The notes under the pieces were generated by a model. The model was not told where the DNA came from. It made no database searches and saw nothing but the letters and a program-made list of their open reading frames with translations. From Nocardioides sp. QY071 (GTDB lineage: Bacteria; Actinomycetota; Actinomycetes; Propionibacteriales; Nocardioidaceae), in assembly GCF_029961765.1 (NCBI RefSeq), contig NZ_CP124681.1, forward strand, positions 1,612,001 to 1,676,000: 64,000 nt of DNA, in the 5' to 3' direction. This document shows, piece after piece, positions 3,278-36,538 of this stretch (its first letter is position 1; the number at the start of each line of letters is the position of its first letter). The position numbers were made by a program, and so were the translations under genes.

Positions 3278-3291
3278 GGCTGTGCTGAGGC

Positions 3292-6379: not shown

Positions 6380-6382
6380 CGC

Positions 6383-7516: not shown

Positions 7517-7547
7517 GGTGCTCCTCGTGCGGTCCTGGGTGCCGAAC

Positions 7548-7574: not shown

Positions 7575-7623
7575 GCCGGGATCCGCGGCTTTGTGGAGAG
7601 GCGACCAAGCTGGCCGGTCGAGA

Positions 7624-8933: not shown

Positions 8934-9520
8934 GCCGCGGAGGTCTCCTCGACCTCGGCGGGGCGCCTGCGGGCGGCGAGGTCGGGGAACGCCTTGTGCA
9001 CGGCGGTCGCGACCAGCGCCATCACGACGTTCTTGGCGATGTCGCCGGGGAAGTAGGCGGCGTCGAAGCTGAACGCCTCCTTGAGGCTGAGGTCCGCACG
9101 CCAGGCGAGGTTGAGCGGCCCGAGGGTGTGCACGACGAGGAAGCTGCTGAGCAGGCCGCAGGTGAACACGAACGCGAACTGCGTGGCGTTGTTGCGGTTG
9201 CGGTAGACGAGGAAGCCGCACAGCGCGGCCGCGATCGGGAACGCGACGAGGTAGCCGGCGGTCACGCCGCTGTAGTGCGAGATGCCGGACGCGCCGCCGG
9301 AGTAGATCGGCAGCACCAGGCCGGCGACCAGGTAGAGCACCACGCACAGGAATCCGCGCACCGGCCCGAGGACGGCGCCCGCGAGCAGCACGCCGAAGGT
9401 CTGCAGCGAGTACGGCACGCCGATGCCGGTCTTGATGTCCGGCAGGATGGCACACACCGCGATGAGCGCGGCGAAGCCGGCGATCAGGGCGACGTCGGTG
9501 GTGGGGGTACGGCGATTCAT
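8930..9520 (-). CDS. bioY: Biotin transporter S component BioY
   Basis: Integral membrane substrate-binding component of the biotin ECF importer, about 196 residues with six predicted helices. The BioY fingerprint is clear: KTGIGVPYSLQTFGVLLAG at residues 30-48 and GYLVAFPIAAALCG further on. The ATG start lies about 40 bases from the divergent operator at 9562. First gene of the bioYMN operon, so de novo synthesis and uptake are apparently controlled by the same regulator. Confidence 0.95.
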   Translation of the reverse strand: MNRRTPTTDVALIAGFAALIAVCAILPDIKTGIGVPYSLQTFGVLLAGAVLGPVRGFLCVVLYLVAGLVLPIYSGGASGISHYSGVTAGYLVAFPIAAALCGFLVYRNRNNATQFAFVFTCGLLSSFLVVHTLGPLNLAWRADLSLKEAFSFDAAYFPGDIAKNVVMALVATAVHKAFPDLAARRRPAEVEETSAA

Positions 9521-9561
9521 CGGGTCACTCTCGGTTCCGGGGGAGCGCGGCAGCGCGCAGT

Positions 9562-9583
9562 TGAACGGTGTTCAGGTTAGGCT
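9562..9583. promoter_or_regulatory. Divergent bioY/TetR promoter region with BioQ-type operator
   Basis: TGAACGGTGTTCA (9562-9574) is identical to the bioB site. Two -10-like boxes overlap back to back beside it: TAACCT for bioY on the minus strand (plus-strand 9574-9579) and TAGGCT for the TetR gene (9578-9583). A repressor here could shut both bioYMN and its own gene. Confidence 0.75.
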
Positions 9584-9636
9584 GGCGCTCGCACCCGGGT
9601 CAACGCGGCCCGGGGGACGAGACGAGGAGAGCCAGG

Positions 9637-10137
9637 GTGCGCTACCGGAGGGACGACGTGGTCGCGCGCGCGATCGAGGTGCTCGACGCCCACGGCCTCG
9701 ACGCGCTCTCCATGCGGCGCCTCGCCGGCGACCTCGGCGTCCAGCCCGGCGCGCTCTACCACCACTTCACCAACAAGGACGCGCTGCTGGCGGCGATCGC
9801 CGACGAGATCCTGCGCCGCGGCCGCCGCCCCGCCGAGATCATGGCCTGGGACGCCGAGGTCCAGCTGCTCTGCCTCGGCCTGCGCGACGCGATGCGCCGC
9901 CACCGCGACGGCGCGGTCCTCATCGCCCGGGTCAACCGCGCCGACGCCGAGGGCCTGGAGCGGCCGCTGCGCGCGGCGCTGGAGCGCGCCGGGGCCGACA
10001 CCGGCCTCGCCCGGATCGCAGCCCGCACCCTGCTCCGGTACGTCCTGTCCCACGAGGACGACTCCGACTCCGACTTCGCCCTCGGCCTGGAGCTCGTGCT
10101 CGACGGCCTGCGCCGGCGGCTCAGCCCGTCCGCGTGA
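9637..10137 (+). CDS. bioQ: TetR-family regulator, probable biotin repressor BioQ
   Basis: About 166 residues. The N-terminal TetR helix-turn-helix reads SMRRLAGDLGVQPGALYHHFTNKDALL; the rest is a helical domain. I chose the GTG at 9637 because GAGGAG lies at 9624-9629; an earlier frame start at 9568 falls inside the operator. It is divergent from bioYMN and shares the TGAAC-N3-GTTCA operator with bioB. BioQ is the known actinobacterial TetR biotin regulator, so the function is inferred from family, site and neighbours. Its last 17 bases overlap the 3' end of the convergent membrane-protein gene. Confidence 0.8.
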   Translation: MRYRRDDVVARAIEVLDAHGLDALSMRRLAGDLGVQPGALYHHFTNKDALLAAIADEILRRGRRPAEIMAWDAEVQLLCLGLRDAMRRHRDGAVLIARVNRADAEGLERPLRAALERAGADTGLARIAARTLLRYVLSHEDDSDSDFALGLELVLDGLRRRLSPSA

Positions 10138-10933
10138 AGGTGATGCTCGCGGGCGTCTGAGGGCCCCGGTCGAGGGCGTCCTTGCTGCAGCCCCAGCAGT
10201 TCTGCTGGACGACGACGCGTCGGCCGTCGACGTCGAGGATCCACCAGTGGCCGGTGTAGGGGGCGGGGCCGCTGACGGCGGTGTCGGGGTTGCCGGGGAG
10301 CTGGATGGCGCTGCCGTCGCACTTGGTGTCGTCGTAGCCGGCGGGGATGCGGGCTTCGAGGTAGGTGCCGTGTGCGCCGCCGAGGTCGACGGGTTGCGGG
10401 GGCGAGACCTGGTAGGCCGGCAGTGTGGTGAGGGCTTGGACGAGGTCGTCGACCGTGGGTCCGGTGGGGACGATGGTCTGGTCGGTGCAGGGGTCGCGGG
10501 GGACGCCGTACTGGTCGCCGGCGAGCTCGGTCTTGAGGATGAAGCTGTCGGTGGCGAGGAAGAGGCCGTCGTCGTGGGCGGAGGTGTCGGTGGGGAGGTC
10601 GACGTCGAAGGCGAGGGAGTCGTCGAGCGGGATGCGGTAGCGGCCTGCTGCGAGGCTAACGGGGTTCTCGTCCGGCCCGTGTGGCGGCAGCGGGAGCACG
10701 CCCGCCGGCAGGTCGGAGGGCGAGGTCGGCGGTGCCTTCGCCGGCTGGATGGCACCGCCGTGGTCATCGACGGTCGACACGACGATGCCTCCGCCGACGA
10801 GGAGGAGTGCGGTCACCGCGCCGACCGCGATCCCGGTGCGGCGCTGTCGTCGGCGCGCGGTGCTCACCAACGAGTCGAAGTCGGGCGGCACCACACGCTG
10901 CGCGAGGTCTCGGAGCGGTTCCCAGTCAGCCAT
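10121..10933 (-). CDS. Single-pass membrane protein, putative anti-sigma factor with a duplicated sensor domain
   Basis: About 270 residues: a cytoplasmic N-terminus (MADWEPLRDLAQRVVPPDF), a basic stretch RRRQRR, one transmembrane helix at about 35-55, and an extracytoplasmic domain with cysteine pairs (DPCTDQ, TKCDGS, NCWGCS). From SLAAGRYRIPL to QNCWGCSK this domain is identical to the lipoprotein encoded at 11464-12204. The start overlaps the sigma-factor stop by eight bases, the usual arrangement for a sigma/anti-sigma pair. No anti-sigma zinc motif is visible, so the anti-sigma role is inference. Confidence 0.7.
   Translation of the reverse strand: MADWEPLRDLAQRVVPPDFDSLVSTARRRQRRTGIAVGAVTALLLVGGGIVVSTVDDHGGAIQPAKAPPTSPSDLPAGVLPLPPHGPDENPVSLAAGRYRIPLDDSLAFDVDLPTDTSAHDDGLFLATDSFILKTELAGDQYGVPRDPCTDQTIVPTGPTVDDLVQALTTLPAYQVSPPQPVDLGGAHGTYLEARIPAGYDDTKCDGSAIQLPGNPDTAVSGPAPYTGHWWILDVDGRRVVVQQNCWGCSKDALDRGPQTPASITFTRTG
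10181..10654. repeat. 474-bp near-identical direct repeat, copy A
   Basis: Matches 11524-11997 without gaps and, by eye, with one difference (T at 10373, C at 11716). It encodes the shared extracytoplasmic domain of the putative anti-sigma protein. Outside these limits the two genes diverge sharply. Confidence 0.9.
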
Positions 10934-11453
10934 GGCTCGGCTCCTCCTTGTCCGTCAACAGCACACCGAGCCGCTGTCGTCCTCTGCCCAGTCGTGACTT
11001 CACGGTGCCCTCCGGAACCTGCAGCTGCTCGGCGATCTCCGCCACCGAGAGGTCGGCGAGGTGGTGCAGCACCACCACCTCGCGCTGGGCCGGGTCCAGG
11101 AGCGCGAGCGCACTGACCAGTGCGACGTGCTCAGGACCGACCGCGACCGCCGGCTCGGGGCCGCGGTCCAGGGCCTGGTGTCGGCGTACCACCGCGAGGT
11201 GGCGCCAGCCGCGGTGCAGCCGGCGTAGTGCGACGGTACGGATCCATGCTTCGGGGTTGTCGACCGAGCGCAGCGTCCTGCGCTTGCGGATCGCGGTGAT
11301 GAACGCGTCCTGCACGGCGTCCTCCGCGTCGGTGAGATCACCGCAGATCGCGTACATCTGGACGACGAGCCGGCGGTACGACGCGGCGTACAGCGCGTCG
11401 ATGTCCTCCGCCTGCTCCGTACCGTCCATCAGCGCCTCCACCATCTCGCTCAA
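10926..11453 (-). CDS. ECF-type RNA polymerase sigma factor
   Basis: About 175 residues of the SigE/RpoE type. Region 2 is YAASYRRLVVQMYAICGD followed by DAEDAVQDAF; region 4 is LLDPAQREVVVLHHL then VAEIAEQLQVPEGTVKSRL, a clear helix-turn-helix. It directs transcription of an unknown regulon. It sits between a lipoprotein gene (10-base gap) and a putative membrane anti-sigma gene (8-base overlap), so the three form one operon. The flanking 474-bp direct repeats bracket this gene. Confidence 0.93.
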   Translation of the reverse strand: MSEMVEALMDGTEQAEDIDALYAASYRRLVVQMYAICGDLTDAEDAVQDAFITAIRKRRTLRSVDNPEAWIRTVALRRLHRGWRHLAVVRRHQALDRGPEPAVAVGPEHVALVSALALLDPAQREVVVLHHLADLSVAEIAEQLQVPEGTVKSRLGRGRQRLGVLLTDKEEPSHG

Positions 11454-11463
11454 CCGTCCCGCA

Positions 11464-12204
11464 TCACGGGGCCGGTGTGAAGGTGATGCTCTGCGGCGCC
11501 TCGGGGGCGCGGGCGAACTCCTTCTTGCTGCAGCCCCAGCAGTTCTGCTGGACGACGACGCGTCGGCCGTCGACGTCGAGGATCCACCAGTGGCCGGTGT
11601 AGGGGGCGGGGCCGCTGACGGCGGTGTCGGGGTTGCCGGGGAGCTGGATGGCGCTGCCGTCGCACTTGGTGTCGTCGTAGCCGGCGGGGATGCGGGCTTC
11701 GAGGTAGGTGCCGTGCGCGCCGCCGAGGTCGACGGGTTGCGGGGGCGAGACCTGGTAGGCCGGCAGTGTGGTGAGGGCTTGGACGAGGTCGTCGACCGTG
11801 GGTCCGGTGGGGACGATGGTCTGGTCGGTGCAGGGGTCGCGGGGGACGCCGTACTGGTCGCCGGCGAGCTCGGTCTTGAGGATGAAGCTGTCGGTGGCGA
11901 GGAAGAGGCCGTCGTCGTGGGCGGAGGTGTCGGTGGGGAGGTCGACGTCGAAGGCGAGGGAGTCGTCGAGCGGGATGCGGTAGCGGCCTGCTGCGAGACT
12001 CACGGAGTCCTCGCCCGGCCCGCGCGCGGGGAGCGCGAGGATCCCCTCCGGAAGGTCGGCGGCAGGAGCCGAGGATCGATCGGCGGCCACGGACGGACCA
12101 TCCTGCTGGGTCGCCTCCGCGGGCTCGTCGTCGGAGCAGCCGGCGGCCAGCGGCAGGAGAGCCGCGGCGAGGGCCACGCGGGCCGCGATCGTTCGTGATG
12201 ACAT
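11464..12204 (-). CDS. Lipoprotein sharing the sensor domain of the sigma-linked membrane protein
   Basis: About 246 residues. The N-terminus is a lipoprotein signal with lipobox LAAGC (Cys23), followed by an acidic linker and then the same 158-residue domain as the protein encoded at 10121-10933; only the last ~20 residues differ (KKEFARAPEAPQ). The ATG at 12202-12204 has a GAGGAG ribosome-binding site six bases away. It is the first gene of the lipoprotein-sigma-membrane protein operon. It may compete for, or present, the signal sensed by the putative anti-sigma factor; that is inference. Confidence 0.8.
   Translation of the reverse strand: MSSRTIAARVALAAALLPLAAGCSDDEPAEATQQDGPSVAADRSSAPAADLPEGILALPARGPGEDSVSLAAGRYRIPLDDSLAFDVDLPTDTSAHDDGLFLATDSFILKTELAGDQYGVPRDPCTDQTIVPTGPTVDDLVQALTTLPAYQVSPPQPVDLGGAHGTYLEARIPAGYDDTKCDGSAIQLPGNPDTAVSGPAPYTGHWWILDVDGRRVVVQQNCWGCSKKEFARAPEAPQSITFTPAP
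11524..11997. repeat. 474-bp near-identical direct repeat, copy B
   Basis: Second copy of the segment at 10181-10654, in the same orientation and 1343 bases away, inside the lipoprotein gene. Confidence 0.9.
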
Positions 12205-12358
12205 CGAGGTCTCCTCGGTGGAAGGTGGCGGACGCCGAGTCGCCCCTGATGCACCCACGAGGTCCGAGTCCGCCACCGGGTTCCCGGCGCGCGCGGGTCT
12301 TTGCCCGGCCGTCGTCGTACGCCGCTCGTTATCGTGGCCGTAACGACGAGGAGGCAGA

Positions 12359-13816
12359 GTGGACGACATGGCACCGAAGACCCAGAAGCCCGTGACGGTC
12401 GTGCTCTTCGGCGCGACGGGAGACCTCGCCCGCCGCAAGCTGCTGCCGGGGATGCTGCACCTGTTCGAGACCGGGCTGCTGCCCCAGCTGCAGATCATCG
12501 GTACGTCGCTCGACGAGCACACCACCGAGTCCTTCGTGCAGTTCGTGCACGAGGCGGTCCAGGAGTTCTCCGGCGACGACGGCGACATGGCGGCCTGGCC
12601 GGAGTTCGCGAAGCTGCTGCACTGGGCCCCCGGCAGCGAGGGGCCGGCGGGCCTGCGTGCCGCGGTCGAGAAGGCCGAGTCCGAGTGGTCGGGGGACCGG
12701 GTCCGGCTGCACTACCTGAGCGTCCCGCCGAAGGCCGCGCTGTCGGTGGTGAAGACCCTCGACGACGCCGGCCTGGCCGAGGGCAGCCGGATCATCATGG
12801 AGAAGCCGTTCGGGGTCGACCTCGCCTCGGCGAAGGCGCTCAACGCCGAGCTGCACAAGACCTTCGACGAGTCGCAGATCTACCGGATCGACCACTTCCT
12901 CGGGAAGGAGGCCGCGCAGAACATCCTCGCCTTCCGCTTCGCCAACGGCCTGTTCGAGCCGATCTGGCACCGCAACAACATCGACCACGTGCAGATCGAC
13001 GTGCCCGAGGAGCTCGGGCTCGAGCAGCGCGCCAACTTCTACGAGTCCACCGGCGCCTACAAGGACATGGTGGTCACCCACCTGTTCCAGGTCCTCGCGT
13101 TCACCGCGATGGAGCCGCCCACGTCGCTGCACCCCGACGCGATCCGCGAGGAGAAGAACAAGGTCTTCCGCTCGATGATGCCGATCGACCCGGCGAACGT
13201 CGTACGCGGTCAGTACCAGGGCTACCGTGACATCGAGGGCGTGGCGCCCGAGTCGGAGACCGAGACCTTCATCGCGCTCAAGTGCTTCGTCGACAACTGG
13301 CGCTGGGCCGGCGTCCCGTTCTACCTGCGCACCGGCAAGCGGATGGCCGAGGGTGCCCGGATCATCTCGATCGCGTTCAAGGAGCCGCCGCGCTCGATGT
13401 TCCCGAAGAACTCCGGCGTCGGCGACCACGGCCCCGACCACCTGACCTTCGACCTGGCCGACAAGGCCAAGATGTCGCTGTCCTTCTACGGAAAGCGGCC
13501 CGGTCCGGGCATGAAGCTCGACAAGCTCTCGATGCAGTTCGCGATGGGCGACACCACCTGGGCCGGCTCCGTGCTCGAGGCCTACGAGCGGCTGATCTAC
13601 GACGCCGCGCGCGGCGACCAGACCCTGTTCACCTCCGCCGAGGGCATCGAGCGGCTGTGGGAGGTCTCCGAGCCGCTGCTCGAGAATCCGCCCGTCGTCC
13701 GGCCCTACCGGCAGGGCAGCTGGGGCCCGAACCAGATCCACCAGCTGGTGGCGCCGTACGCCTGGCGGCTGCCGTTCGAGCGGCAGTGGCGCAACCCCAA
13801 CGCCATGGGCGGCTGA
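12359..13816 (+). CDS. zwf: Glucose-6-phosphate 1-dehydrogenase
   Basis: Oxidises glucose 6-phosphate to 6-phosphogluconolactone with NAD(P)+, the entry to the pentose phosphate pathway. The nucleotide loop GATGDLARRK and the active-site signature RIDHFLGKE (catalytic His) are present. 485 residues, full length. I use the GTG at 12359, which has GAGGAG at suitable distance; the ATG at 12368 would be 14 bases away. It stands alone: no opcA, tal or tkt is next to it. It diverges from the lipoprotein-sigma operon. Confidence 0.95.
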   Translation: MDDMAPKTQKPVTVVLFGATGDLARRKLLPGMLHLFETGLLPQLQIIGTSLDEHTTESFVQFVHEAVQEFSGDDGDMAAWPEFAKLLHWAPGSEGPAGLRAAVEKAESEWSGDRVRLHYLSVPPKAALSVVKTLDDAGLAEGSRIIMEKPFGVDLASAKALNAELHKTFDESQIYRIDHFLGKEAAQNILAFRFANGLFEPIWHRNNIDHVQIDVPEELGLEQRANFYESTGAYKDMVVTHLFQVLAFTAMEPPTSLHPDAIREEKNKVFRSMMPIDPANVVRGQYQGYRDIEGVAPESETETFIALKCFVDNWRWAGVPFYLRTGKRMAEGARIISIAFKEPPRSMFPKNSGVGDHGPDHLTFDLADKAKMSLSFYGKRPGPGMKLDKLSMQFAMGDTTWAGSVLEAYERLIYDAARGDQTLFTSAEGIERLWEVSEPLLENPPVVRPYRQGSWGPNQIHQLVAPYAWRLPFERQWRNPNAMGG

Positions 13817-13821
13817 CCCGG

Positions 13822-14700
13822 CTAGCGCACGACCACGTCGCTGTAGCCGACCGGCCCGCCGAGCAGGTCGCGCCGGGAGACCGGCGTGCGGCCGTCGACG
13901 TCGCTCACCCCGAGCTCGCTCGCCAGCTCGGCACCGATCAGCGCCCGCCCGGTCTTCTCCCGCTTGACTCCGGCCGGGCCGCCGGCGAGCGCCGCGATCA
14001 CCCGCCCGGTCAGCTCAGGGTGCTCCATGATCGGCAGCGAGGCGGCGTACAGGTCCGGGTCGGCGTCGACGACCCGCATCGTCCGCTCGGTGCGCAGCAG
14101 CCCCGGCCACAGGGCCACGACGCTGACCCCGGTGTCGGCCAGGTCGACGGCCATGTCGTGGGTCATCTTGTCGACGCCCGCCTTCACCGCGCCGTACGCC
14201 GGACCGTGCAGGTAGCAGACCGCGCCGAAGCCGGAGATGTTGACGACCAGCGGTGCCCGCTGCGCCGACTCCAGCAGCAGGGGAGTGGCGTGCCAGGTCG
14301 TCGTGTACGTCGAGCGCAGCCCGACGTCGAACATCATCACCGCGTCGAGCGGCTTCTCCCAGAACCCGCCGCCCGCGGTGACCTCGTCGGGTACGGCGAA
14401 CGCGTTGTTGACCAGCAGGTCCAGGTGTCCCTGCTCGCGCCGTACCTGCTCGACGAGGGCCGCGACCGCCCCGTCGTCGCGGTGGTCGCACGCCACCGCC
14501 ACCCCGGTCCCACCGCGCTCGGTGACCTGCTCGGCGGTCTCGCCGATGGTGCCGCCGAGGTCGTGTGACCCGGGTGCGACGCTGCGGCCGGTGACGTAGA
14601 CGGTGTAGCCGGCCTCGCCCAGGGCGAGGGCGATCCCCTTGCCCAGCCCACGGCTGGCTCCGGTGACGACGGCGACGCGGCGGTCCTGCTGCTGTGGCAC
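13822..14700 (-). CDS. SDR-family NAD(P)-dependent oxidoreductase (DHRS1-like)
   Basis: Short-chain dehydrogenase of about 292 residues: VVTGASRGLGKGIA (cofactor loop, TGxxxGxG), LLVNNAFA, and the catalytic pair in YGAVKAG (YxxxK). The C-terminal extension resembles DHRS1-type SDRs. The GTG at 14698-14700 is preceded by AGGAG about 7 bases away and begins after the CoA-transferase stop, so I prefer it to a longer overlapping start. It is the last gene of the catabolic operon that starts at 21441. Substrate unknown. Confidence 0.85.
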   Translation of the reverse strand: MPQQQDRRVAVVTGASRGLGKGIALALGEAGYTVYVTGRSVAPGSHDLGGTIGETAEQVTERGGTGVAVACDHRDDGAVAALVEQVRREQGHLDLLVNNAFAVPDEVTAGGGFWEKPLDAVMMFDVGLRSTYTTTWHATPLLLESAQRAPLVVNISGFGAVCYLHGPAYGAVKAGVDKMTHDMAVDLADTGVSVVALWPGLLRTERTMRVVDADPDLYAASLPIMEHPELTGRVIAALAGGPAGVKREKTGRALIGAELASELGVSDVDGRTPVSRRDLLGGPVGYSDVVVR

Positions 14701-14710
14701 TGCTGGGCTC

Positions 14711-15934
14711 CTAGATGACACCGGCACGGCGCAGCGAGGCTACCCGGTCCTCGGCGTACCCGAGCTCGGCGAGCACCGCTTCGGTGTCCGCGCCGACCTC
14801 GGGCGCGCGCCGGGGCGGGCGGCGCTGCTCGCCGACGACGTTGACCGGTGTCGGCAGCAGGTCGGCGCCGTGCTCGGCCGCGGGCCACCAGGGCATGCGG
14901 TGCGCGAACTGGGGGTCGCGGCCGATCCCGGCGGCGTCGTTGACCGGCGCGATGGGGCAGTCGATCGCCAGCCCGAGCTCGACCCAGTCCGCGGTGGTCC
15001 GGGTCGCGAAGAGTGCGCGCAGCTCGGCACGCAGGTCCCGGTCGCCGGTCGCGTGGTCGCCGTACTGCTGGCCCTCGCGTCCCTCGAAGAGATCGAGCCG
15101 GTCGCAGGCGACGCAGAAGTTGCGCCAGAACTCCTGCTCGGACGCCTGGAAGAGGACGTGCCCGTCGGCGGAGCGGTAGTACTGGTAGCGCACCGCCTCC
15201 TCCATGCCGCCCGGACCCGGCCGCCGCCGGGCCCCACCGTCGGCCGGGTTGCCGGTCACCTCGGGCTCCGGCCGCTCGTAGGCCCGGTGCCCCTCGATCG
15301 GCAGCCAGTTGCTGAAGGCGGCCGCGTCGCTCTGGGAGATGTCGAGGTGGCACCCGACGCCGGTACGACGGGCGCGGAGCACGGCGGACACCGCCGCGAG
15401 CGCTCCCCACAGCGGGCCGACCTTGGTCCCGGTGCCCGTGTGCTCGGGGATGTAGGTGAACCCCTGCTCGTCGACGGCCGGCGCGGCGAGGCCGGCCCAC
15501 GCGTCGAAGCCGACGCCGTGCGACGGCAGGTCGCGGTAGGGCCCGTCGATGCCGAACCCGGACAGCGAGCAGAGCACGATCGCCGGGTTGACCCCGCGAA
15601 GCCGGTCGAAGCCGAGGCCGCGGCGCTCCAGGGCGCCGGGCCGCATGCCCTCGACCACGATGTCGGCCCCGGCGACGAGGTCGAGGAACACCTCGGGGCC
15701 GCCCGGCGAGCGCAGGTCGAGGCGGATCGACCGCTTGCCGCGGTTGACGTGCCAGTGCAGCAGCGAGCTCCCCTCGACGATCGGCCAGCCGAGCCGGCGG
15801 ATGTAGTCGCCGCCCGGGGGTTCGACCTTGATGACCTCGGCGCCGAGGTCGCCGAGGGTCATGCCCAGGGCGCCGGGCTCCAGCAGCGTGCACTCGACGA
15901 CGCGGATGCCGTCGAGCAGGGGTGGGTGGGTCAC
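14711..15934 (-). CDS. CaiB/BaiF-type (family III) CoA transferase
   Basis: Moves CoA between carboxylic acids through an aspartyl-CoA thioester. Family hallmarks: MTLGDLGAEVIKVEPPGGD at the N-terminus, NRGKRSIRLDL, and DIVVEGMRPGALERRGLG. 407 residues, typical length. In the catabolic operon it lies between the alpha-beta-barrel protein and the SDR. With the ADP-forming CoA synthetase of the same operon it points to CoA activation of an imported acid. Confidence 0.88.
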   Translation of the reverse strand: MTHPPLLDGIRVVECTLLEPGALGMTLGDLGAEVIKVEPPGGDYIRRLGWPIVEGSSLLHWHVNRGKRSIRLDLRSPGGPEVFLDLVAGADIVVEGMRPGALERRGLGFDRLRGVNPAIVLCSLSGFGIDGPYRDLPSHGVGFDAWAGLAAPAVDEQGFTYIPEHTGTGTKVGPLWGALAAVSAVLRARRTGVGCHLDISQSDAAAFSNWLPIEGHRAYERPEPEVTGNPADGGARRRPGPGGMEEAVRYQYYRSADGHVLFQASEQEFWRNFCVACDRLDLFEGREGQQYGDHATGDRDLRAELRALFATRTTADWVELGLAIDCPIAPVNDAAGIGRDPQFAHRMPWWPAAEHGADLLPTPVNVVGEQRRPPRRAPEVGADTEAVLAELGYAEDRVASLRRAGVI

Positions 15935-28400: not shown

Positions 28401-28407
28401 GTTGAGC

Positions 28408-28466
28408 GCACCCCCTACGAATTGGTCGTCATCTCGGCAGATCTGCGACCAATTCGTAGGGGGTGC
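28408..28466. repeat. Inverted repeat with perfect 21-bp arms
   Basis: 28408-28428 and 28446-28466 are exact reverse complements around 17 bases. Arms begin GCACCCCCTACGAATTGG. There is no T-run, so this may be a REP-like palindrome or a terminator-like stem between the TetR gene and the target-gene remnant. Confidence 0.85.
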
Positions 28467-28504
28467 GGGGCAGGGCCGGCGGCGAAGCCCGGCATGAGAG
28501 CGCG

Positions 28505-28777
28505 CTACTGAGCGACGGCGAGCAGTCGCTCGCACTCCTCGACCAGCCGCGCCCGCAACGGCGCACCCCGCTCGCTGAACCCGCGCTGCGCCTCGACGTA
28601 CGCCGCCTTTCCCTCGGCCGTCTCGATCCGCACCGGCTCGAAGCCCAGGTCCGCGAGGTCGTACGGCGCCGCGCGCATGTCCAGCACCCGGATGTCCCAG
28701 GCGAGCTCGAAGCAGTCGGCCACCAGGTCGGAGCACACCAACGGGGAGAGCCGGAAGGCGTGCTTGTAGAGGTCCAT
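28505..28777 (-). pseudogene. Displaced native 3' end of the integration target gene
   Basis: About 91 codons from MDLYKHAFRLSP to ECERLLAVAQ and a TAG at 28505-28507. They match the C-terminus of the intact gene at 35634-36506 (shared runs such as [31 protein letters not shown]), but without its first two thirds. Homologues usually continue MDLYK-x-A, like this fragment and unlike the current intact gene, so this is the original C-terminus cut off by the element. Confidence 0.85.
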
Positions 28778-28794
28778 CAACACTAGGATTGCAG
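28766..28794. other. Left attachment site (attL)
   Basis: The core GTAGAGGTCCAT (28766-28777) joins chromosomal sequence on the left to element sequence on the right; TTGCAG at 28789-28794 is the right arm of the reconstructed attP. Confidence 0.75.
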
Positions 28795-28816
28795 GCATCT
28801 AGTGGAAGGTGCCGCG

Positions 28817-30277
28817 GTGAAGGTCTCGCTCTATGTCCGACTCTCGGAGGACGCGCATGGCAACGAGCTCGGTGTCGAGCGCCAGATCAATGAGTGCCGA
28901 GAGTACGCCGAGACTCGTGGATGGTCGGTGGGCGAGGTCTTCATCGACAACGACCTCTCGGCGACCACTGGCGTCGAGCGGCCGGAGTTCGAGAGGTTGC
29001 TGGCGAGCCAGCCGGAGTCGATCCTGTGCTGGCACCTCGACCGCCTGCTTCGTGTCTCGAGCGATCTGGAACGTGTCATCGCGCTGAACGTCAACGTCTT
29101 CTCGAAGGAGGCTGGCTGGTTCGACCTCAGCACACCGGCTGGCCGTGCCGTCGCCAGAACGGTCACCGCTTGGAGCACCTACGAGGGTGAGCAGAAGGCG
29201 GCTCGACAGAAGGCCGCTCACCGGCAGCGTGTCGACGCTGGCGGAATGACCGCGACCGGCAGGCCGTGGTGGCCGACCAGGCCGCTCGGCTTCAACCTCG
29301 ATGGCACCCATCACGACGAGGAAGCACCGGCTCTTCGAGAGGTCTACGACCACATCCTCCGAGGGGGCACGCTCGCAGGATCGGTTCGCTACTTGGACGA
29401 ACTCGGCATCGTCACTCAGCGAAGTCTTGACCTCGACGCCAAGGCAGCAGCGGAGGAAGGTCGAGAGCCGGTCGGGAGGCCCTGGCGGGCTTCCAGTCTT
29501 CGCCCGGTACTCCTCAACGCTCGCAATGCCGGCATCTACGTCTACAACGGCGAGGAGATTGGTGAAGCGGCTTGGGAGCCGATCGTCACGGAGGAGGTGT
29601 TCCGGGCCGTCGTACGGATCGTGACCAATCCGGCCAGGAGGCTCAATGGCGAGGCCTCGGGTGGCTTCGGGCACCGGACCAACCTGCTGACCGGACTTGC
29701 GTCCTGCTCGCTCTGCGGCCACACCGTGCGTGCAGCGTGGCGGCGAAATGCTGCGGGGGAGCGGGCGTACAAGGTCTACCAGTGCGGCGGATGCAAGAAG
29801 GTAACGCTGCGAGCGGAATGGGCCGACTCAGTCGTCACCCGCGAAGTGATCGAACGCGTGGAGCAATGGCAGGACGAACTCCCCAAGCCGGACCAGGCAC
29901 CGATCGATGTAGCCAGCCTGCACACTCAGTTGAAGGCACTCGACGCGAGCAAGCAGGAACTCGCAGAGGACCGCGCTCTTGGGTTGATCGACCGCGAACA
30001 ACTCCGACTTGGTACCGCTCGTGCAAACGAGGAGATCGCCAAGATCACGGACCAACTGGCCGAGCACGGCACGGGTGACGATGGGCCACTGTTCTGGGAC
30101 CCGGACACCCTGTGGCAGTGGACGGGCGACGAGGCGGGGGAGGGGTACGACGTGGAGAGATTGACGCCGATCATCAAGCGCGTCTGCAGGTCGATCGTTC
30201 TCACCGGGCCCGGAAAGGGCCGAAAAGACTTGCTGTACGGCCAGCATCTGGTGATCGAGTTCCACGAACCGACCTAG
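28817..30277 (+). CDS. Large serine recombinase (site-specific integrase)
   Basis: About 486 residues. The N-terminal resolvase domain begins VSLYVRLSED with catalytic Ser10; conserved arginines follow in HLDRLLR. Next come the recombinase domain (RPWRASSLRPVLLNARNAGIYVY) and a zinc-ribbon (CSLCGHTV then CGGCKK) with a coiled-coil region after it. The GTG at 28817 has GGAAGG seven bases upstream; the earlier start at 28802 has none. It sits 40 bases inside the left attachment site, as integrases usually do. No excisionase-like recombination directionality factor is recognised. Confidence 0.95.
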   Translation: MKVSLYVRLSEDAHGNELGVERQINECREYAETRGWSVGEVFIDNDLSATTGVERPEFERLLASQPESILCWHLDRLLRVSSDLERVIALNVNVFSKEAGWFDLSTPAGRAVARTVTAWSTYEGEQKAARQKAAHRQRVDAGGMTATGRPWWPTRPLGFNLDGTHHDEEAPALREVYDHILRGGTLAGSVRYLDELGIVTQRSLDLDAKAAAEEGREPVGRPWRASSLRPVLLNARNAGIYVYNGEEIGEAAWEPIVTEEVFRAVVRIVTNPARRLNGEASGGFGHRTNLLTGLASCSLCGHTVRAAWRRNAAGERAYKVYQCGGCKKVTLRAEWADSVVTREVIERVEQWQDELPKPDQAPIDVASLHTQLKALDASKQELAEDRALGLIDREQLRLGTARANEEIAKITDQLAEHGTGDDGPLFWDPDTLWQWTGDEAGEGYDVERLTPIIKRVCRSIVLTGPGKGRKDLLYGQHLVIEFHEPT

Positions 30278-30424
30278 GGTCGGTAGATGCGAGTGTCACC
30301 ACGTTCGCACGCTTCACCGGACGTTGTGCGAGGTGCTCGGCAAGGATGACGGTGTGAGGGTTGATCTGTTCGACATCAGTTCTGGTGGGTATGGCGGAAT
30401 CCGACCGCGGACGGACTGGCGGTC

Positions 30425-31366
30425 GTGACGACGACGCTGCGGCTGGGTTTGGGCTACCTGCGGTCAGACATGCAGCCGGGAGTGGACGTCTCGCTGATCT
30501 GGGTTCACGACTTCACCTTGGAGCAGCACCAAGAGTTCGAACAGCACCTCAAGACGATCAAAGAAGCGTCGCGGCGCCCGATGCTGGAGATCGTGGAGGT
30601 CGCATCAGCGACCCTCGCGGCAGCCCTTGATCGGTTCGCAGATGACCGGAAATCCGCGGTCGCTGCCAAGCGGTCGGTCGAGCTTGATCAGGAAGCGAGG
30701 ATTGCCGCATTCGCAACCGTGAATGCCGCCTACGCGTTCCAGGAACATGCTAAGGCTACGGCCATCCGAGCGGGCGGAGAACGACTGTGGAACGAGGTAA
30801 ACGCCGTCTTCGCCAACGTGTATCACGAGAACGTCTGCTACTTGGTCGCATACAAACTGAGGCAACTCTTCGTTCACGACGCGATCGGGGCTGTCCGGGT
30901 GAATAGTCAATCCAAGCGCGAAGCGGACGGCGTCGTGGATTCTGTCGACTGCTATGTCGATCGCTCATACCTCAAAGCGAGGCTGACCGGGCGTGCTGGG
31001 CAGTGGGTGATCGATCGTGAGGCCGATCTGAGCGTCGCTGATCTGATGGGAGGGACGCTTGCGGGGATGGAGGAAGTGTTTCGCCGTACGCGCGCGATGC
31101 TCTTTCCTGAACTGACCGAGTCGCTGGCGTTCTTCGACCCGTGGCGACCCGAGCTGCTCAACGCGGAGTATGCGCTGTGTCTCACTCGCGTCACGCTCAC
31201 TGACAGCGGAGAGATCGGCCCAATGAAGTTCAAGCAGGTGCGTCCAGACGACCTGCTGAACGCCGGCATGGCGCCACTTACGGCACAGGAGTTGGCATCA
31301 TCCTCTGAGTTGGCGCTGAACCGTATCTGCAGGGCAGCAGACGGAGCTCTTGACGAGGAATCCTAG
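30425..31366 (+). CDS. Hypothetical protein of the integrated element
   Basis: About 313 residues, GTG start with no obvious RBS. It contains a long helical segment rich in Ala and charged residues (about 45-100) and then a mixed part with KLRQLFVHDAIGAVRVNS and LLNAEYALCLTRVTL. No catalytic or DNA-binding motif is recognised and no membrane segment is seen. It follows the recombinase by 147 bases in the same direction. Base use is AT-richer than in flanking chromosome. Function unknown. Confidence 0.65.
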   Translation: MTTTLRLGLGYLRSDMQPGVDVSLIWVHDFTLEQHQEFEQHLKTIKEASRRPMLEIVEVASATLAAALDRFADDRKSAVAAKRSVELDQEARIAAFATVNAAYAFQEHAKATAIRAGGERLWNEVNAVFANVYHENVCYLVAYKLRQLFVHDAIGAVRVNSQSKREADGVVDSVDCYVDRSYLKARLTGRAGQWVIDREADLSVADLMGGTLAGMEEVFRRTRAMLFPELTESLAFFDPWRPELLNAEYALCLTRVTLTDSGEIGPMKFKQVRPDDLLNAGMAPLTAQELASSSELALNRICRAADGALDEES

Positions 31367-31533
31367 ATCCGGCGGCTGACCGCCAGCAGATGCCGACGTA
31401 ACCGCCAAGACCAATGGGCGTGGAGAGATTCTGGCTACGTAGGTGATTCAGTTTGGTTGCGAATGGGCTCTGATCGTCCACCGTCGGGGCGAATGGCAAC
31501 GTCCAGTTGCCTACAGACGTGCCTTTGGACGGT

Positions 31534-31833
31534 CTAGCCGTCCCGACGCTCAGCCGCTCGTTGACGAGCCTGCAGGCGCGAAAGACTCCCGCTCATGCGG
31601 TCCTGCTCAGAGCCAGCCAGGCCGGCCTCATCGGCATCCCATCCGACGTACTCGGCCAGGAGACGACGCACCACGTCGCTTCGGGTCTCCCCGTTGGCTT
31701 CAGCTACCTCGGCAACGCGATCCCAGAGCGCGTCTGAGACGCGGATGCCTTTGACCTTCGTGGAGCCTCGGTCGGTGTTCCTCGGTGCTGCCATAGGTGC
31801 ATCTTCTCGCGTGGCGAGTGCCGAGCGCGTCAC
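31534..31833 (-). CDS. Ribbon-helix-helix-like DNA-binding protein
   Basis: About 99 residues. The middle, STKVKGIRVSDALWDRVAEV then TRSDVVRRLLAEYV, has the beta-strand plus two-helix pattern of the CopG/RHH fold. The GTG start (31831-31833) overlaps the stop of the gene upstream as GTGA; an internal ATG at MAAPRNTDRG is an alternative. It may control the element's minus-strand operon or the opposing genes. Confidence 0.7.
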   Translation of the reverse strand: MTRSALATREDAPMAAPRNTDRGSTKVKGIRVSDALWDRVAEVAEANGETRSDVVRRLLAEYVGWDADEAGLAGSEQDRMSGSLSRLQARQRAAERRDG

Positions 31834-32174
31834 GCCAGCCCTTTCATGAGGTCGAGCAAGGCGAGCTTGTACCTGAACTCGTCCTCATGGCTGATCGGCT
31901 CGTTGTCCTCGTGCGCCGGATAGAGACCGTGCGCCACACTTCCGTTAGGCAGGTAGCCGATCTCGACAGGAAGATCCCATTCGTCGGCGTAGAACGTCCA
32001 TCCGTCGGCGATTAGTCGCCGAGTGATGCTGTCCCAGTCGGCAGCGTGCAGACCATCACCACCACCGAGCGTGATGTCGGTGGACGGGTCAGGGGTGACC
32101 AACACTCCTGCACCGCGAAGCGCGTCGAGCACCGCCACGTGTGCTCCGCTCTCGATCCGCACCGGCTGAGTCAT
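31830..32174 (-). CDS. Hypothetical small protein of the integrated element
   Basis: About 114 residues from the ATG at 32172-32174, preceded by GAGGGA. Features: AVLDALRGAGVLVTPDPS, WDSITRRLIADGWTFYADEWDLPVEIGYLPNG. Acidic and aromatic-rich; no known domain. It is translationally coupled to the RHH gene (GTGA). A two-gene operon with a DNA-binding protein recalls regulatory or toxin-antitoxin pairs, but no toxin motif is visible. Confidence 0.6.
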   Translation of the reverse strand: MTQPVRIESGAHVAVLDALRGAGVLVTPDPSTDITLGGGDGLHAADWDSITRRLIADGWTFYADEWDLPVEIGYLPNGSVAHGLYPAHEDNEPISHEDEFRYKLALLDLMKGLA

Positions 32175-32280
32175 GTCTTCGTCCCTCTCATTCGCAATGA
32201 GAACAGCGTCTCTTGCCGTTCTTGTACCTGCCACGGGCTCGCACCGTGGCGCCTGCTTGTCAGGCTTCTCAGATTGGCCG

Positions 32281-32341
32281 CTGTGGTGGGTGTGACCGAT
32301 CCCAGGTCTCAATGGTCCCCGGCCTGTCACACCCACCACAG
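32281..32341. repeat. 15-bp inverted repeat between the two minus-strand element genes
   Basis: CTGTGGTGGGTGTGA (32281-32295) and its exact complement (32327-32341) surround 31 bases. It lies in the 195-base gap between genes and could be a terminator, an operator or a replication/packaging site. There is no T-run. Confidence 0.8.
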
Positions 32342-32369
32342 AGCGTCATACGGCGCCTACGGCGCCTGT

Positions 32370-32660
32370 TTAGGCAGTCAGGAGCTCACAGAGCGAGTCG
32401 AGCCAGACGAGCAGCGCGCCACGGTCGTCAGGGTGCTTGATCTCCCTGCGGATCTCGTCGGCGAGCTCGTCTGTGTCGAACGGTCGGCCGCGGCTGAGCG
32501 CCGTGATGTTCGAGCACGAACCGTCGTACCAGTGCCACCAACTCGCAATGGTGCGAGCGCTCTGGTCAGAGATCGGGTCTCCCGTCTCTGCCGAGCTCCA
32601 TACGTCGTCGCACGTTTCTTCGCTCGTGCCGAGCCTGTAGGTACTGACGTGCGCATACAT
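32370..32660 (-). CDS. Hypothetical small protein of the integrated element
   Basis: About 96 residues from the ATG at 32658-32660 (GAGAGG about nine bases upstream). Trp-rich centre (ASWWHWYDGSCS) and an acidic C-terminal half (DTDELADEIRREIKHPDD). No known motif. Adjacent small frames upstream on this strand are possible but unsupported. Confidence 0.5.
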   Translation of the reverse strand: MYAHVSTYRLGTSEETCDDVWSSAETGDPISDQSARTIASWWHWYDGSCSNITALSRGRPFDTDELADEIRREIKHPDDRGALLVWLDSLCELLTA

Positions 32661-32816
32661 GTCAGGCGACCTCTCGCTCAAAGTGATGCACGGCAGCGGC
32701 ACGGAGTCGGCCCGAGGGCGAGAGCGGATCAGGTCCAAACCGCTCAATCTTGAAGAGTCCGAGCGTGCTCGTCTTCGTCGTCACCATCACGAAGTCGGCG
32801 GTTGCGGTCGGCGTGA

Positions 32817-33101
32817 AGCTCCCGCTACGAGCAGATCGGCCTGTGCTCCGTTTGCGCTGCCCAGGCGGCCTACGGCCACCAACACGGCTTCGCGGTCGTC
32901 CGCCGGCCTTGCTTCGACTGCGCTTCGATCCTCGCCCGCCTGCCGAAGGAAGAGCATGGTTGCTGGCGCTCAATGTCGGTCGGCAGCCGAGCCGCCGTAG
33001 AGCGCGTGAAGGCAGGCCTGACAGTGAGCCGGACCGAGACTCCCGCCAACGGTCACACCTACCTCAGCGGCCCGTCTAGGGGCATTCTGGAGGCCGCATG
33101 A
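32817..33101 (+). CDS. Zinc-ribbon protein reading frame without a canonical start
   Basis: After an in-frame TGA at 32814 the frame reads SSRYEQIGLCSVCAAQAAY then, 14 residues later, CFDCASILARL. The paired CxxC motifs and phrase AAYGHQ-GF recall small zinc-ribbon proteins common on actinobacterial mobile elements. The stop overlaps the next gene as ATGA, the same coupling used by the next pair, which supports real translation. No ATG, GTG or TTG precedes the first CxxC; CTG at 32841, or a one-base frameshift in a longer gene, would explain it. Confidence 0.6.
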   Translation, partial: SSRYEQIGLCSVCAAQAAYGHQHGFAVVRRPCFDCASILARLPKEEHGCWRSMSVGSRAAVERVKAGLTVSRTETPANGHTYLSGPSRGILEAA

Positions 33102-33379
33102 CCGGCGCGACTCTCGTTGGCATGCTCGTCCACCACGGCATAGAGCCGGCCAAGGCCATACGCCTAGTGAATCTCATTGCAGAAATGGAATCGAGCACCG
33201 ACTCCCGGCTCGTTACCGACCATCTGCTGTCAACGGTCGATGCACTTGTTAAGAGCGGGGTGCCCCGGTACGACGTATTTGCCGCGCTTCTCTGTCATCC
33301 CAGCGCCCACGACACAGCACAACAGCGCTACCGCGCCATTGGCGCGAAGACCCTCAAAGAGATGGAGCGCACACCATGA
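33098..33379 (+). CDS. Hypothetical small helical protein of the integrated element
   Basis: 93 residues, ATG at 33098 with GGAGG four bases upstream. Mostly helical (VGMLVHHGIEPAKAIRLVNLIAEME); no known domain. ATGA overlaps join it to the zinc-ribbon frame upstream and the TerS-like gene downstream, so the three are one coupled unit. Confidence 0.75.
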   Translation: MTGATLVGMLVHHGIEPAKAIRLVNLIAEMESSTDSRLVTDHLLSTVDALVKSGVPRYDVFAALLCHPSAHDTAQQRYRAIGAKTLKEMERTP

Positions 33380-33807
33380 GTGGCCCCATGCCCAACCGCT
33401 CCGGAGAACTCACCCCAGCCGCCGAGCGTCAGCGCAAGTCGCGAGGCACCACCGCCGTTCGCGGTAAGTCGAACCCGGCCACGATCCCCGACCCGGACCC
33501 CGACTGGTGCCACGCGGCAAGGCTCATGTGGGACTCTGCCTGCGAGAGCGGAGGAGCCGCCTTCTACGAGTCCAGCGACTACGCGACCCTCTGGCTTCTC
33601 TGCGACCAGATCGACTACCTCTATCGGACCAACAAGGACGGCGAGGCCAAGCCACGCTCACCAGAGATGTTCAAGGCCGTTCTCACCGGCCTCGGCAACC
33701 TGCTCGTCTCCGAAGGAGACCGACGCAAACTCCACATTGAGCTCGAGAAGGCCCCCGACGACAACCCGGACTTCCTCAACGACCTGAACGAACTGCTCGA
33801 CAACTGA
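33376..33807 (+). CDS. Putative phage terminase small subunit (TerS-like)
   Basis: 143 residues. The layout matches small terminases of actinophages: basic N-terminal tail, PDPDPDW, a tryptophan-containing helix, CESGGAAFYESSDYATLWLL, then LLVSEGDRRKLHIELEK. TerS selects DNA for packaging. The assignment rests on recalled family resemblance, not a search. No large terminase or structural gene accompanies it. This combination is characteristic of phage-inducible islands that redirect a helper phage's packaging. It ends the coupled trio and is followed by a terminator. Confidence 0.7.
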   Translation: MSGPMPNRSGELTPAAERQRKSRGTTAVRGKSNPATIPDPDPDWCHAARLMWDSACESGGAAFYESSDYATLWLLCDQIDYLYRTNKDGEAKPRSPEMFKAVLTGLGNLLVSEGDRRKLHIELEKAPDDNPDFLNDLNELLDN

Positions 33808-33820
33808 GCAGGCGGAAGCC

Positions 33821-33868
33821 AGCCCCTCCCCGCTTCCAGCACCTTGGAAGTCGGTGAGGGGCTCTTTT
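33821..33868 (+). terminator. Terminator after the TerS-like gene
   Basis: AGCCCCTC (33821-33828) pairs with GAGGGGCT (33856-33863); GCTTCCA/TTGGAAG-like bases add an inner stem, and TTTT follows at 33865-33868. Confidence 0.75.
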
Positions 33869-33924
33869 CTGCTTTTGCAGGCATTCCCCGGTTTGCGTCG
33901 GCAGTTGGTCGTAGCCTCCGGAAC

Positions 33925-35490
33925 ATGGCTGAGGAGACCTGGCACGCAGCACGCCTGATCCCCACCTCAGGGATCTCGGGAGCAGAAGAGCAGGAGCGAC
34001 GAGCGACTTCCGCGTTCCTTGCTGTGCTCACAGCAGTGAAGGAGTTCGGCCGCGCCGTCCTCGGGCCGCTCGGAGCACCGGCAGGCAACGTGGAGACCTA
34101 CATCGAGGTCCCTTTCAAACTGGGCGAGAAGGACTGGCGACCTGATGGGCTCATCCGGGTATCACGCGGATCGAAGAGTTGGGTCGCGCTCGTAGAGGTC
34201 AAGACCGGCAAGAACTCGCTGGCGACTGAGCAGTTGGAGGCCTATCTCGACATTGCTCGGGAGCAGGGCTTCGACGCGGTCGTCACGATCTCCAACGAGA
34301 TCCCACCGAGCGCTGACCAACACCCGACCCACGTCGACAAGCGGAAGCTCCGCAAAATCGCCCTGTGCCACCTGTCGTGGGCCGACGTACTCAGCACAGC
34401 CGTGCTCCAGAAGGAGCACCGTGGAGTGTCCGACCCCGACCAGGCTTGGATTCTCGGCGAGCTGATCCGCTACCTGGAGCACCCGAAGTCGGGAGCGCTG
34501 GAGTTCGACGACATGGGATCCGATTGGGTCGGCGTACGCGAGGCCGTCAGCGCAGGCACTCTGCGCGCCACCGACAAGACGATCGCCGATGTGGTCGCCC
34601 GCTTCGACGCCCTTCTTCGTTACGCGTCACTGCACCTAGGCCGGCGACTCGGAACGGACGTGACCTTGCAGTTGAACCGCAAGGAGCGAGCGGAGCCAGC
34701 GCTCCGAGCGCAGGCACTACGAGCACTGCTCGTGGACACCGGCACGCTGAGCGGAAGCATCCGCATCCCCGACACTGTTGCCGACATCAAGATCACCGCC
34801 GACCTGCGGTCGAGCAAGGTCACCTGCGAGCTCGTCGTGGATGCTCCGAAGACTGGCCGCCCGACGACCCGGGTCAACTGGCTCGCACGGCAGTTGAAGG
34901 ATGCCCCCGGCTCGCTCAGGATCGAAGCCTCGGCGCTCAACCAGCGCGGGCCAGGCGCCGCTGAACTGCTCAGCGTCGTCAGAGAGGACCCGGCCCTGCT
35001 CGTGTCCGACCCCACTAGGGAGTTGCGTTCCTTCACGGTCGCGCAGAGCGTTTCGATGGGCACCAAGCGCGGCCGCGGCCGCGGGGCATTCATCGACTCC
35101 GTCATCGACGCTGTGGACAACTTCTACGAGACAGTCGTTCAGAACATCAAGGCATGGTCTGCCGCTCCTCCCAAGTTCCGCGAAGAGGTCGAGCCTCCCA
35201 GGGAGGAGCGCTCGGCCTTGTCTTCGACGGCGCTCTCCTCACAGGACGGCGCTGAGCCTGTCGAGCGACCCGCCCCGACCGTTGTTGAGGAACGGAAGGT
35301 CGGAGATGGCGACGCGTCCGAGCGTCCGGACGATGAGGCCGACTCGTTCTCCGACGATGCTGTCGACCCGGCTCCGCCCCCCGAAGTTGCCGACACCACC
35401 GAATCGAGCGTTGCAGTCGATCGGGAGGACGAGCCGACGCCCTTCGCTCCAGTCAGGATCTACTCGATGCCTGTCTCCGAAGACTCCTGA
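33925..35490 (+). CDS. PD-(D/E)XK nuclease-like protein with acidic disordered tail
   Basis: About 521 residues from the ATG at 33925. Residues 58-110 show a restriction-endonuclease-like core: Glu61, Asp74 in WRPDG, EVK at 91-93, then QLEAY at 103-107, which fits the order D-x(n)-ExK-Q. The middle (about 170-390) is unassigned, and residues beyond 420 are Pro/Glu/Asp-rich and probably disordered. The gene stands alone between terminators at the right end of the element, the usual place for accessory or defence cargo. Function (anti-phage, housekeeping for the element, or other) is unproven. Confidence 0.75.
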   Translation: MAEETWHAARLIPTSGISGAEEQERRATSAFLAVLTAVKEFGRAVLGPLGAPAGNVETYIEVPFKLGEKDWRPDGLIRVSRGSKSWVALVEVKTGKNSLATEQLEAYLDIAREQGFDAVVTISNEIPPSADQHPTHVDKRKLRKIALCHLSWADVLSTAVLQKEHRGVSDPDQAWILGELIRYLEHPKSGALEFDDMGSDWVGVREAVSAGTLRATDKTIADVVARFDALLRYASLHLGRRLGTDVTLQLNRKERAEPALRAQALRALLVDTGTLSGSIRIPDTVADIKITADLRSSKVTCELVVDAPKTGRPTTRVNWLARQLKDAPGSLRIEASALNQRGPGAAELLSVVREDPALLVSDPTRELRSFTVAQSVSMGTKRGRGRGAFIDSVIDAVDNFYETVVQNIKAWSAAPPKFREEVEPPREERSALSSTALSSQDGAEPVERPAPTVVEERKVGDGDASERPDDEADSFSDDAVDPAPPPEVADTTESSVAVDREDEPTPFAPVRIYSMPVSEDS

Positions 35491-35575
35491 CGGACCGATT
35501 CACCGTGAATCGCCTGTGGTGGGCGACGAGCCATGAACCGTCACAAGTCCCCGTGCTGTGGTGGCCGGGGACACG

Positions 35576-35611
35576 CGAACCCCTCCTGGAACGTATGCCG
35601 GGAGGGGTTCG
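35576..35611. terminator. Hairpin between the nuclease-like gene and the target gene
   Basis: CGAACCCCTCC (35576-35586) and its exact complement (35601-35611) enclose 14 bases. It lies between two convergent genes and may serve both; the T-content after it is weak. Confidence 0.7.
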
Positions 35612-35633
35612 TGCTTCGCGGTTGCGATCCGGC

Positions 35634-36506
35634 TCAGTTCCTGACGCTGAGCAGGCGCTCGCACTCTTCGATGAGCCGCTGACGGATGGGCGCGCCTCGC
35701 TCTGCGAACATGCGTTGAGCCTCGGCGTACTCCCGCTTACCCTCCGGAGTTTCAATCCGGATGGGTGACCATTCCTCGCCGCCGAGGTCCAGGCCGGACA
35801 GGTCATACGGTGCTGCCTGCATGTCCATGACCCTGATGTCCCAAGCGAGTTCGAAGGCGTCGGCAACGAGGTCGGACGAGATCATCGGAGACAACCTGAC
35901 TGCAACCTTGCCGTAGAGGTCCATGCCGGCGTGCAGACAGCCGGGCTGCTCGAAGTCGGGGCGGTCGTCGCGGCCCGGGACGAGCGTGTTCAGCGGGCGG
36001 GCCGGGGGAGTGAAGAAGCGGTAGGCGTCGAAGTGCGAGCACGCGATCCGGTGGCCCTCGACGACCTCGTCGGTGCCGGCGGGACCGAGGCGGAGCGGCC
36101 AGTCGGCGTGCCGGGTCTCGTCCTCGGTGAGGCGGTAGACCATGGCCCACTCGTGCAGGCCGAAGCAGCCGAAGTGCGGGGCGCGGCCGGCGGTGGCGGT
36201 GAGCAGCGCGTGAATCGAGGCGACGAGGGGCCGCTGCGCGATGACGTACGACGAAGCGACGCTCACGCCGCCCGCGACCGCGTCGTACCCCTTGAGTCCC
36301 TCCAGCCCGGACCCCGGCGGCGCGACCACCCCGAAGCCCGGGTGCCAGCGGCGCAGCTGGGCGGGCCGGTAGGAGTAGTAGGTGAAGAGGAAGTCGAAGA
36401 CCGGGTGCTTCACCGCCGCCCCGCGGCGGGCGAGGTGCGGGGCGACGTAGCGATCGATGCGGGCGGCGTGGTCCGCAGCCCGCCGACGCCATTCCTCCGC
36501 ATTCAC
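35634..36506 (-). CDS. Integration target gene with element-supplied 3' end; 3-methyladenine-DNA-glycosylase-annotated family
   Basis: About 290 residues. Homologues in actinobacteria are commonly labelled 3-methyladenine DNA glycosylase, though I see no proof of that activity. Conserved landmarks: [45 protein letters not shown]. The part before the attachment core (35913-35924) is native; everything after it comes from the element and reads GKVAVRLSP where the native remnant reads KHAFRLSP. The GTG at 36504-36506 fits a leaderless start after TACGCT; a TTG at 36515 is the alternative. Confidence 0.85.
35900..35924. other. Right attachment site (attR)
   Basis: Core GTAGAGGTCCAT at 35913-35924, with CTGCAA (35900-35905) as the left arm of the reconstructed attP. 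Confidence 0.75.
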
Positions 36507-36538
36507 GACGACCAAGCGTAGGTCGATAGGCTCACCGG

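Follow-up and report, generated by a model that had tools for sequence, protein, structure and literature searches.

A Nocardioides serine-integrase element that encodes a small terminase and lacks particle genes, a candidate phage satellite

An integrated element and its attachment site

The analysed window, 64,000 nucleotides from Nocardioides sp. QY071, contains an integrated element bounded by two copies of a 12-bp core, GTAGAGGTCCAT, at 28766 and 35913, which delimit 7,147 bp (stretch 28766-35924). With an integrase gene and attachment-site repeats it has the general organisation of a satellite, and its GC content of about 61-65% contrasts with the roughly 70-75% of the chromosome. The initial annotation had described a small serine-integrase element here; the description holds, but the element extends beyond the segment then assigned to it. 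The following features were identified in and around it:

28505-28777, minus strand: 3′ end that originally belonged to the host target gene, displaced by the insertion; 90 codons, GC 71%
28766-28777, plus strand: attL core and start of the element
28820-30277, plus strand: large serine integrase (open reading frame listed from 28802)
30425-31366, plus strand: 313-aa protein, coding score positive, no family match above cut-off
31534-31791, minus strand: ribbon-helix-helix (Arc/CopG-like) regulator
31830-32174, minus strand: 114-aa protein, conserved in related elements
32370-32660, minus strand: 96-aa protein, called from coding score only
32817-33101, plus strand: zinc-ribbon frame (CxxC...CxxC), probably 5′-truncated
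33098-33379, plus strand: 93-aa protein, mostly helical, its translation coupled to that of TerS
33376-33807, plus strand: small terminase, TerS
33821-33863, plus strand: hairpin followed by CTCTTTTCT, probable terminator directly 3′ of TerS
33925-35490, plus strand: 521-aa probable PD-(D/E)XK-type nuclease, cargo
35634-35924, minus strand: replacement 3′ end for the target gene, supplied by the element, with the attR core (35913-35924) at its end
35634-36515, minus strand: host target gene, about 290 aa, intact as a hybrid

The target gene has an FAA-hydrolase-like gene and gltX as neighbours. In the conspecific genome G216, which has no TerS, the corresponding locus (L069) is an empty site with an intact target gene; its sequence agrees with the left flank of the element as far as 28777 and with the right flank starting at the repeated core. 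The displaced 3′ end is 100% identical to that of the intact gene in G216, and the replacement end shares 74% amino acid identity with the original; because the element supplies this replacement, the 293-aa host gene stays open after insertion. The site is reused in another species, where it holds an element (L067) with the core TTGTAGAGGTC at 2154 and 15626 and an integrase 58% identical to that of the window element. The initial annotation had named a decayed complete prophage in related strains as one finding that would speak against a satellite. A search for one returned an empty site and no prophage in G216, while the same-site comparison in the other species gave a TerS element without a large terminase gene (TerL) rather than a prophage. 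Just outside attL, after a TetR-like gene, lies a near-perfect inverted repeat, GCACCCCCTACGAATTGGTC ... GACCAATTCGTAGGGGGTGC, at 28402-28467.

The integrase contains resolvase (PF00239) and recombinase (PF07508) domains, both over cut-off, along with a weak PF13408 match and a match to phrog_95 (E 6.7e-77), and its closest phage counterparts are the integrases of phiScoe3, phiCAM, and R4 (~40% identity). The ribbon-helix-helix regulator (PF01402 over cut-off; phrog_6506, E 6e-11) has homologues in the related elements L030 and L060, and the 114-aa protein is 56% identical to its counterpart in L030 and 42% identical to that in L060/L097, with a dN/dS of ~0.2. A further relative of the regulator was observed at L024 (G058:C2), positions 2410-2625, close to a Camvirus-like prophage from the same genus that represents a possible helper type.

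The 521-aa protein contains a D...EVK motif and a weak match to VRR_NUC (E 0.038). Since its gene is present in 41 of the 211 genomes of the genus, mostly in those without TerS matches, it is regarded as swappable cargo, probably with an anti-phage function. PADLOC returned no match on the element. In L067, a restriction helicase and an N6/N4 DNA methylase (type III-like) occupy the place of the nuclease, adjoining attR (L067:10661-15216).

The small terminase and the genes coupled to it

The frame at 33376-33807 encodes 143 aa and had been likened to actinophage small terminases, with a profile search suggested as the check. That search gave strong homology: residues 1-130 match the Pfam family PF25673 (Terminase_7) at 90.1 bits (E 1.7e-25), against a curated cut-off of 27 bits, and the protein also matches phrog_226 at 72 bits. 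Homologues were found by tblastn in 843 phage records, mainly Mycobacterium and Streptomyces phages, the best matches being Streptomyces phages at ~43% identity, for example the Camvirus phiScoe44. The family phrog_226 is named "minor tail protein", yet it matches TerS of the window element and of related elements; the name looks like a mislabel, because the phiScoe44 homologue stands immediately 5′ of the large terminase gene. Structural comparisons were less specific. The TerS model (pLDDT 68) aligns with HK97 TerS at Z 5.4, tied with unrelated helical proteins, its top match in a viral structure library is a terminase small subunit (E 2e-4), and the best match of the TerS profile to PDB sequences has an E-value of 0.29.

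Phylogenetic analysis grouped TerS of the window element with those of L059 and L030 in a clade (support 100/98) separate from phage and prophage TerS. L098 attaches to this clade with lower support (86/83), and the position of L067 is unsure because its TerS is too divergent and forms a very long branch. Between the window element and L059, TerS has a dN/dS of ~0.28, a value that is approximate as dS is near 1 but indicates purifying selection and thus a maintained function. Directly after TerS, a folded stretch at 33815-33880 (minimum free energy -35.4 kcal/mol, z -4.7) contains a strong hairpin with a T-rich tail, a probable terminator that was missed by a simple terminator pattern scan. 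A promoter scan found none.

TerS is the last of three frames joined by two 4-base ATGA overlaps, between the zinc-ribbon frame and the 93-aa gene and between the 93-aa gene and TerS, exactly as the initial annotation had described. The zinc-ribbon frame is genuine: its product is conserved and has homologues at four further loci (L030, L059, L060, and L061). In the window copy, it has no start codon and an in-frame TGA directly 5′, and the N-terminal stretch common to its relatives is absent; comparison with these relatives revealed no start, and no programmed frameshift is claimed. The gene is probably broken in this copy.

The 93-aa protein is predicted to be all-helical with moderate confidence (pLDDT 69). 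It is 37% identical to its counterpart in L059 (E 6e-14), related genes occur in L030 and L067, and in all three elements a gene of this type is coupled to TerS. The 93-aa-type proteins form two subgroups that share weak similarity (E 0.0006, probability 29%). Searches of 50,697 phage records with one representative each of the zinc-ribbon protein (a relative's version), the 93-aa protein, and the coiled-coil protein of related elements found no match.

Related elements, particle genes, and candidate helpers

Relatives were recovered by TerS-profile searches of genomes and kept where TerS occurs without TerL. L030, L059, L067, L098, and L103 each encode TerS and a serine integrase without TerL. 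L059, L030, and L067 belong to the same genus as the host and have a satellite-only small protein coupled to TerS, together with the zinc-ribbon gene in L059 and L030. L059 combines TerS (61% identity), the 93-aa counterpart, and the zinc-ribbon gene with a 460-aa integrase. L030, recorded in a MAG of a Propionibacteriales bacterium, encodes TerS (45% identity), the zinc-ribbon protein, a 94-aa protein, and the counterpart of the 114-aa protein, and has a weak replication-initiator match that the window element lacks. L067 encodes a 109-aa protein followed by a TerS of 159 aa, and a Dda-like helicase. L098 and L103 come from other families and represent more distant actinobacterial elements. 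A coiled-coil-like protein is encoded upstream in L030, L059, L067, and L098 and is absent from the window element, which at 7.1 kb is the shortest of a group whose other members measure roughly 10-14 kb.

No relatives emerged when viral contigs were scanned with the L059 TerS, a zinc-ribbon homologue, or the 93-aa protein. The scan with a close TerS alignment yielded four TerS homologues, all followed by phage head genes on the same contig, and a genome-contig scan returned a single record, the L030 element again. Weak zinc-ribbon matches also led to L062 and L063, which resemble ordinary chromosome and were set aside. L099 and L100, which have the look of remnants, were left out of the count.

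Elements with a tape measure gene were also observed. L021 (G000:C1:2350000-2369999, about 3239-15800) is a second candidate satellite in the same host genome. It has no TerL; its genes include one for a tyrosine integrase, one for a distantly related TerS of 120 aa (27.6 bits), and one for a tape measure protein of 1,047 aa (phrog_6090, E 6e-11). Similar TerS and tape-measure elements occur in the genus at L034, L036, and L038 and, composed of less similar parts, at L035 and L102. At L097/L060 (G009:C10, about 548.5-571 kb), the integrase shares 49% identity with the L059 integrase and is accompanied by a zinc-ribbon gene, a ribbon-helix-helix pair, and a 1,353-aa tape measure protein that is 40% identical to that of phiScoe44 over 562 aa; TerS was not found there. 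Both this element and L059 lie near a TetR and a thiolase gene.

Particle genes were surveyed by running tblastn against the elements with 35 phiScoe44 proteins that cover structural, replication, lysis, and other functions. The control prophages L022 and L024 gave matches to HNH, TerS, TerL, portal, MuF, scaffold, capsid, head-tail, and tail genes. On the window element, only TerS and the integrase are matched, and in L030, L059, L067, L098, and L103 only TerS and/or the serine integrase. With these positive controls, no TerL, portal, capsid, or tail gene was detected on the window element, as the initial annotation had maintained, so a packaging function of phage origin is present on an element without particle-making genes. 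Family searches (Pfam/PHROG) recognised no replication initiator on the window copy. No cos or pac site was identified, and no convincing non-coding motif is shared among the related elements: a search for 12-base non-coding words in common yielded nothing beyond scattered short matches.

The TerL_ATPase profile has no match in the host genome and matches three of 14 control genomes; the absence of TerL from the host is based on this controlled profile search and not on an uncontrolled search with a single phage protein. The host search thus revealed neither a prophage with TerL nor a resident helper, and a helper, if any, would be external or have a TerL missed by the profile. Because TerS and integrase share R4/Camvirus relatives, the similarities point to R4/Camvirus-like phages as donors of both genes and make them the probable helpers.

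A likely phage satellite and its place among known systems

Stretch 28766-35924 is, in our view, likely to be a phage satellite residing in the chromosome, with a TerS that would redirect the packaging of a helper. Its single packaging protein, its lack of particle genes, and its membership of a family that recurs across related bacteria together make a phage parasite the most likely reading. The initial annotation's candidate satellite thus gains support from TerS homology, the empty site, the same-site TerS element without TerL, and the recurrence of the module in separate elements with other integrases. The three-gene hijack module that it envisaged fits the family better than the window copy, with its probably broken zinc-ribbon gene.

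In the proposed cycle, the serine integrase inserts the element near the 3′ end of a conserved host gene, and the lost end is replaced by the copy that the element brings, as the sequence of the site shows. Infection by an R4/Camvirus-like siphophage would lead to excision, and TerS would be made from the coupled zinc-ribbon/93-aa/TerS operon. Consistent with TerS biology and the SaPI precedent, satellite TerS would join the large terminase of the helper and shift packaging from helper to satellite DNA. The 93-aa protein would most likely assist satellite TerS or block that of the helper, given its coupling, size, and satellite-only distribution and the analogy with SaPI TerS and Ppi (PMC5052747); the part played by this protein, like that of the zinc-ribbon protein, is conjectural.

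The same genes could have been left by an R4/Camvirus-like temperate phage that lost all but its integrase, TerS, and a few small genes, and the R4/Camvirus relatives of both proteins, the truncated look of the zinc-ribbon frame, and the lack of a replication gene would all follow from such decay. We regard this as improbable: decay would have had to leave an identical residue at least three more times, independently, in elements that differ in integrase and site, the zinc-ribbon, 93-aa, and coiled-coil proteins match no phage record, TerS is under purifying selection, and the site is empty in a genome of the same species. Similarly unlikely, in our judgement, is a defence island in which TerS acts as a decoy or poison against incoming phages and the element itself is not packaged. 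The nuclease-like cargo here and the restriction-modification-like cargo of L067 are in keeping with defence, and anti-phage proteins are known to target TerS, at least as described for Rip1 bound to a phage TerS in PDB entry 9oox. Against this, packaging is the simplest account of a DNA-recognising packaging subunit kept under selection, PADLOC gave no match, and interference and packaging are compatible, both being done by SaPIs (PMC5052747).

A former satellite, now dead, that is neither replicated nor packaged and persists by repairing the interrupted gene and by useful cargo deserves more weight, though we hold it to be somewhat improbable for the window copy. Since the zinc-ribbon N-terminus, the replication gene, and the coiled-coil gene are all absent, a deletion is suggested, and the copy, the shortest of its group, may be defective or decaying. 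The integrase, the 93-aa gene, and TerS are nevertheless intact, coupling and terminator are retained, and satellites as small as ~7 kb have been published, according to PMC13376191. Death of this copy would be compatible with satellite function in the family. For that family, we propose tentatively, with doubt slightly outweighing belief, that the elements are a separate actinobacterial lineage, unrelated by descent to PICIs, that swaps single assembly parts of R4/Camvirus-like siphophages: TerS with a satellite-only 93-aa partner here, the tape measure elsewhere.

Capsid-less satellites based on TerS are best known from staphylococci. The window element is set beside pac-type SaPIs by pattern, but none of their genes were recognised. 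Like pac-type SaPIs and PICIs (PMC5052747), it is integrated, lacks capsid and TerL genes, has a TerS gene of its own within an operon that also encodes small proteins, and has cargo genes and its own att site; pac SaPIs encode a TerS that functions with the large terminase of a phage, as well as Ppi, which binds phage TerS (PMC5052747). It differs in showing no sequence homology to them, in its serine integrase where theirs is usually a tyrosine integrase, in its R4/Camvirus-type TerS and actinobacterial host, and in the lack of a recognised Stl, Pri-Rep, CpmAB, or Ppi homologue; Pfam/PHROG-type searches recognised no known PICI genes on it, and it has satellite-only genes of its own. PICIs are further characterised by a conserved organisation of the replication origin, a unique and specific attachment site, genes exclusive to PICIs, and induction, interference, and packaging that depend on a phage (PMC6092414); here no initiator was recognised on the window copy, and the site is also occupied by L067 in another species.

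Among actinobacterial systems, candidate PICIs of Mycobacterium, including phiRv1/phiRv2 (PMC10654092), are likewise integrated, some with serine integrases, but these, like cf-PICIs, are defined by a major capsid protein gene, which the window element lacks. The Streptomyces satellites MulchRoom and MiniFlayer (PMC10690885) share a TerS gene and an actinobacterial host with it; unlike it, they encode TerL, portal, capsid, and scaffold, one is non-integrating, and their helpers are BE phages rather than R4/Camvirus-like phages, the probable helpers here. PICMI (PMC10803314) are similarly small and without capsid-remodelling genes, but occur in marine Vibrionaceae, and PICMI115 has no terS or ppi homologue. 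The PLE satellite of Vibrio cholerae encodes a tape measure protein, resembling the strategy of the TerS and tape-measure elements, and no other satellites had been reported to do so as of 2026 (PMC12987554); the window element has no tape measure gene, and its genes and host are unrelated to those of PLE.

A literature search for TerS-only satellites in actinobacteria found nothing, a weak result as most subscription journals lie outside its coverage. The actinobacterial satellites described in PMC10654092 and PMC10690885 encode capsids. A family of the TerS-only kind, its donor phages being recognisable, would offer a tractable helper candidate in the R4/Camvirus-like phages, with their well-studied Streptomyces members, would add a novel small protein whose gene is coupled to that of TerS, and, with TerS pairs ~43% identical, would provide a case for probing packaging specificity. 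Such a family would also account for some of the small integrase islands of actinobacterial genomes that a prophage survey has suspected to be satellites (PMC10023795).
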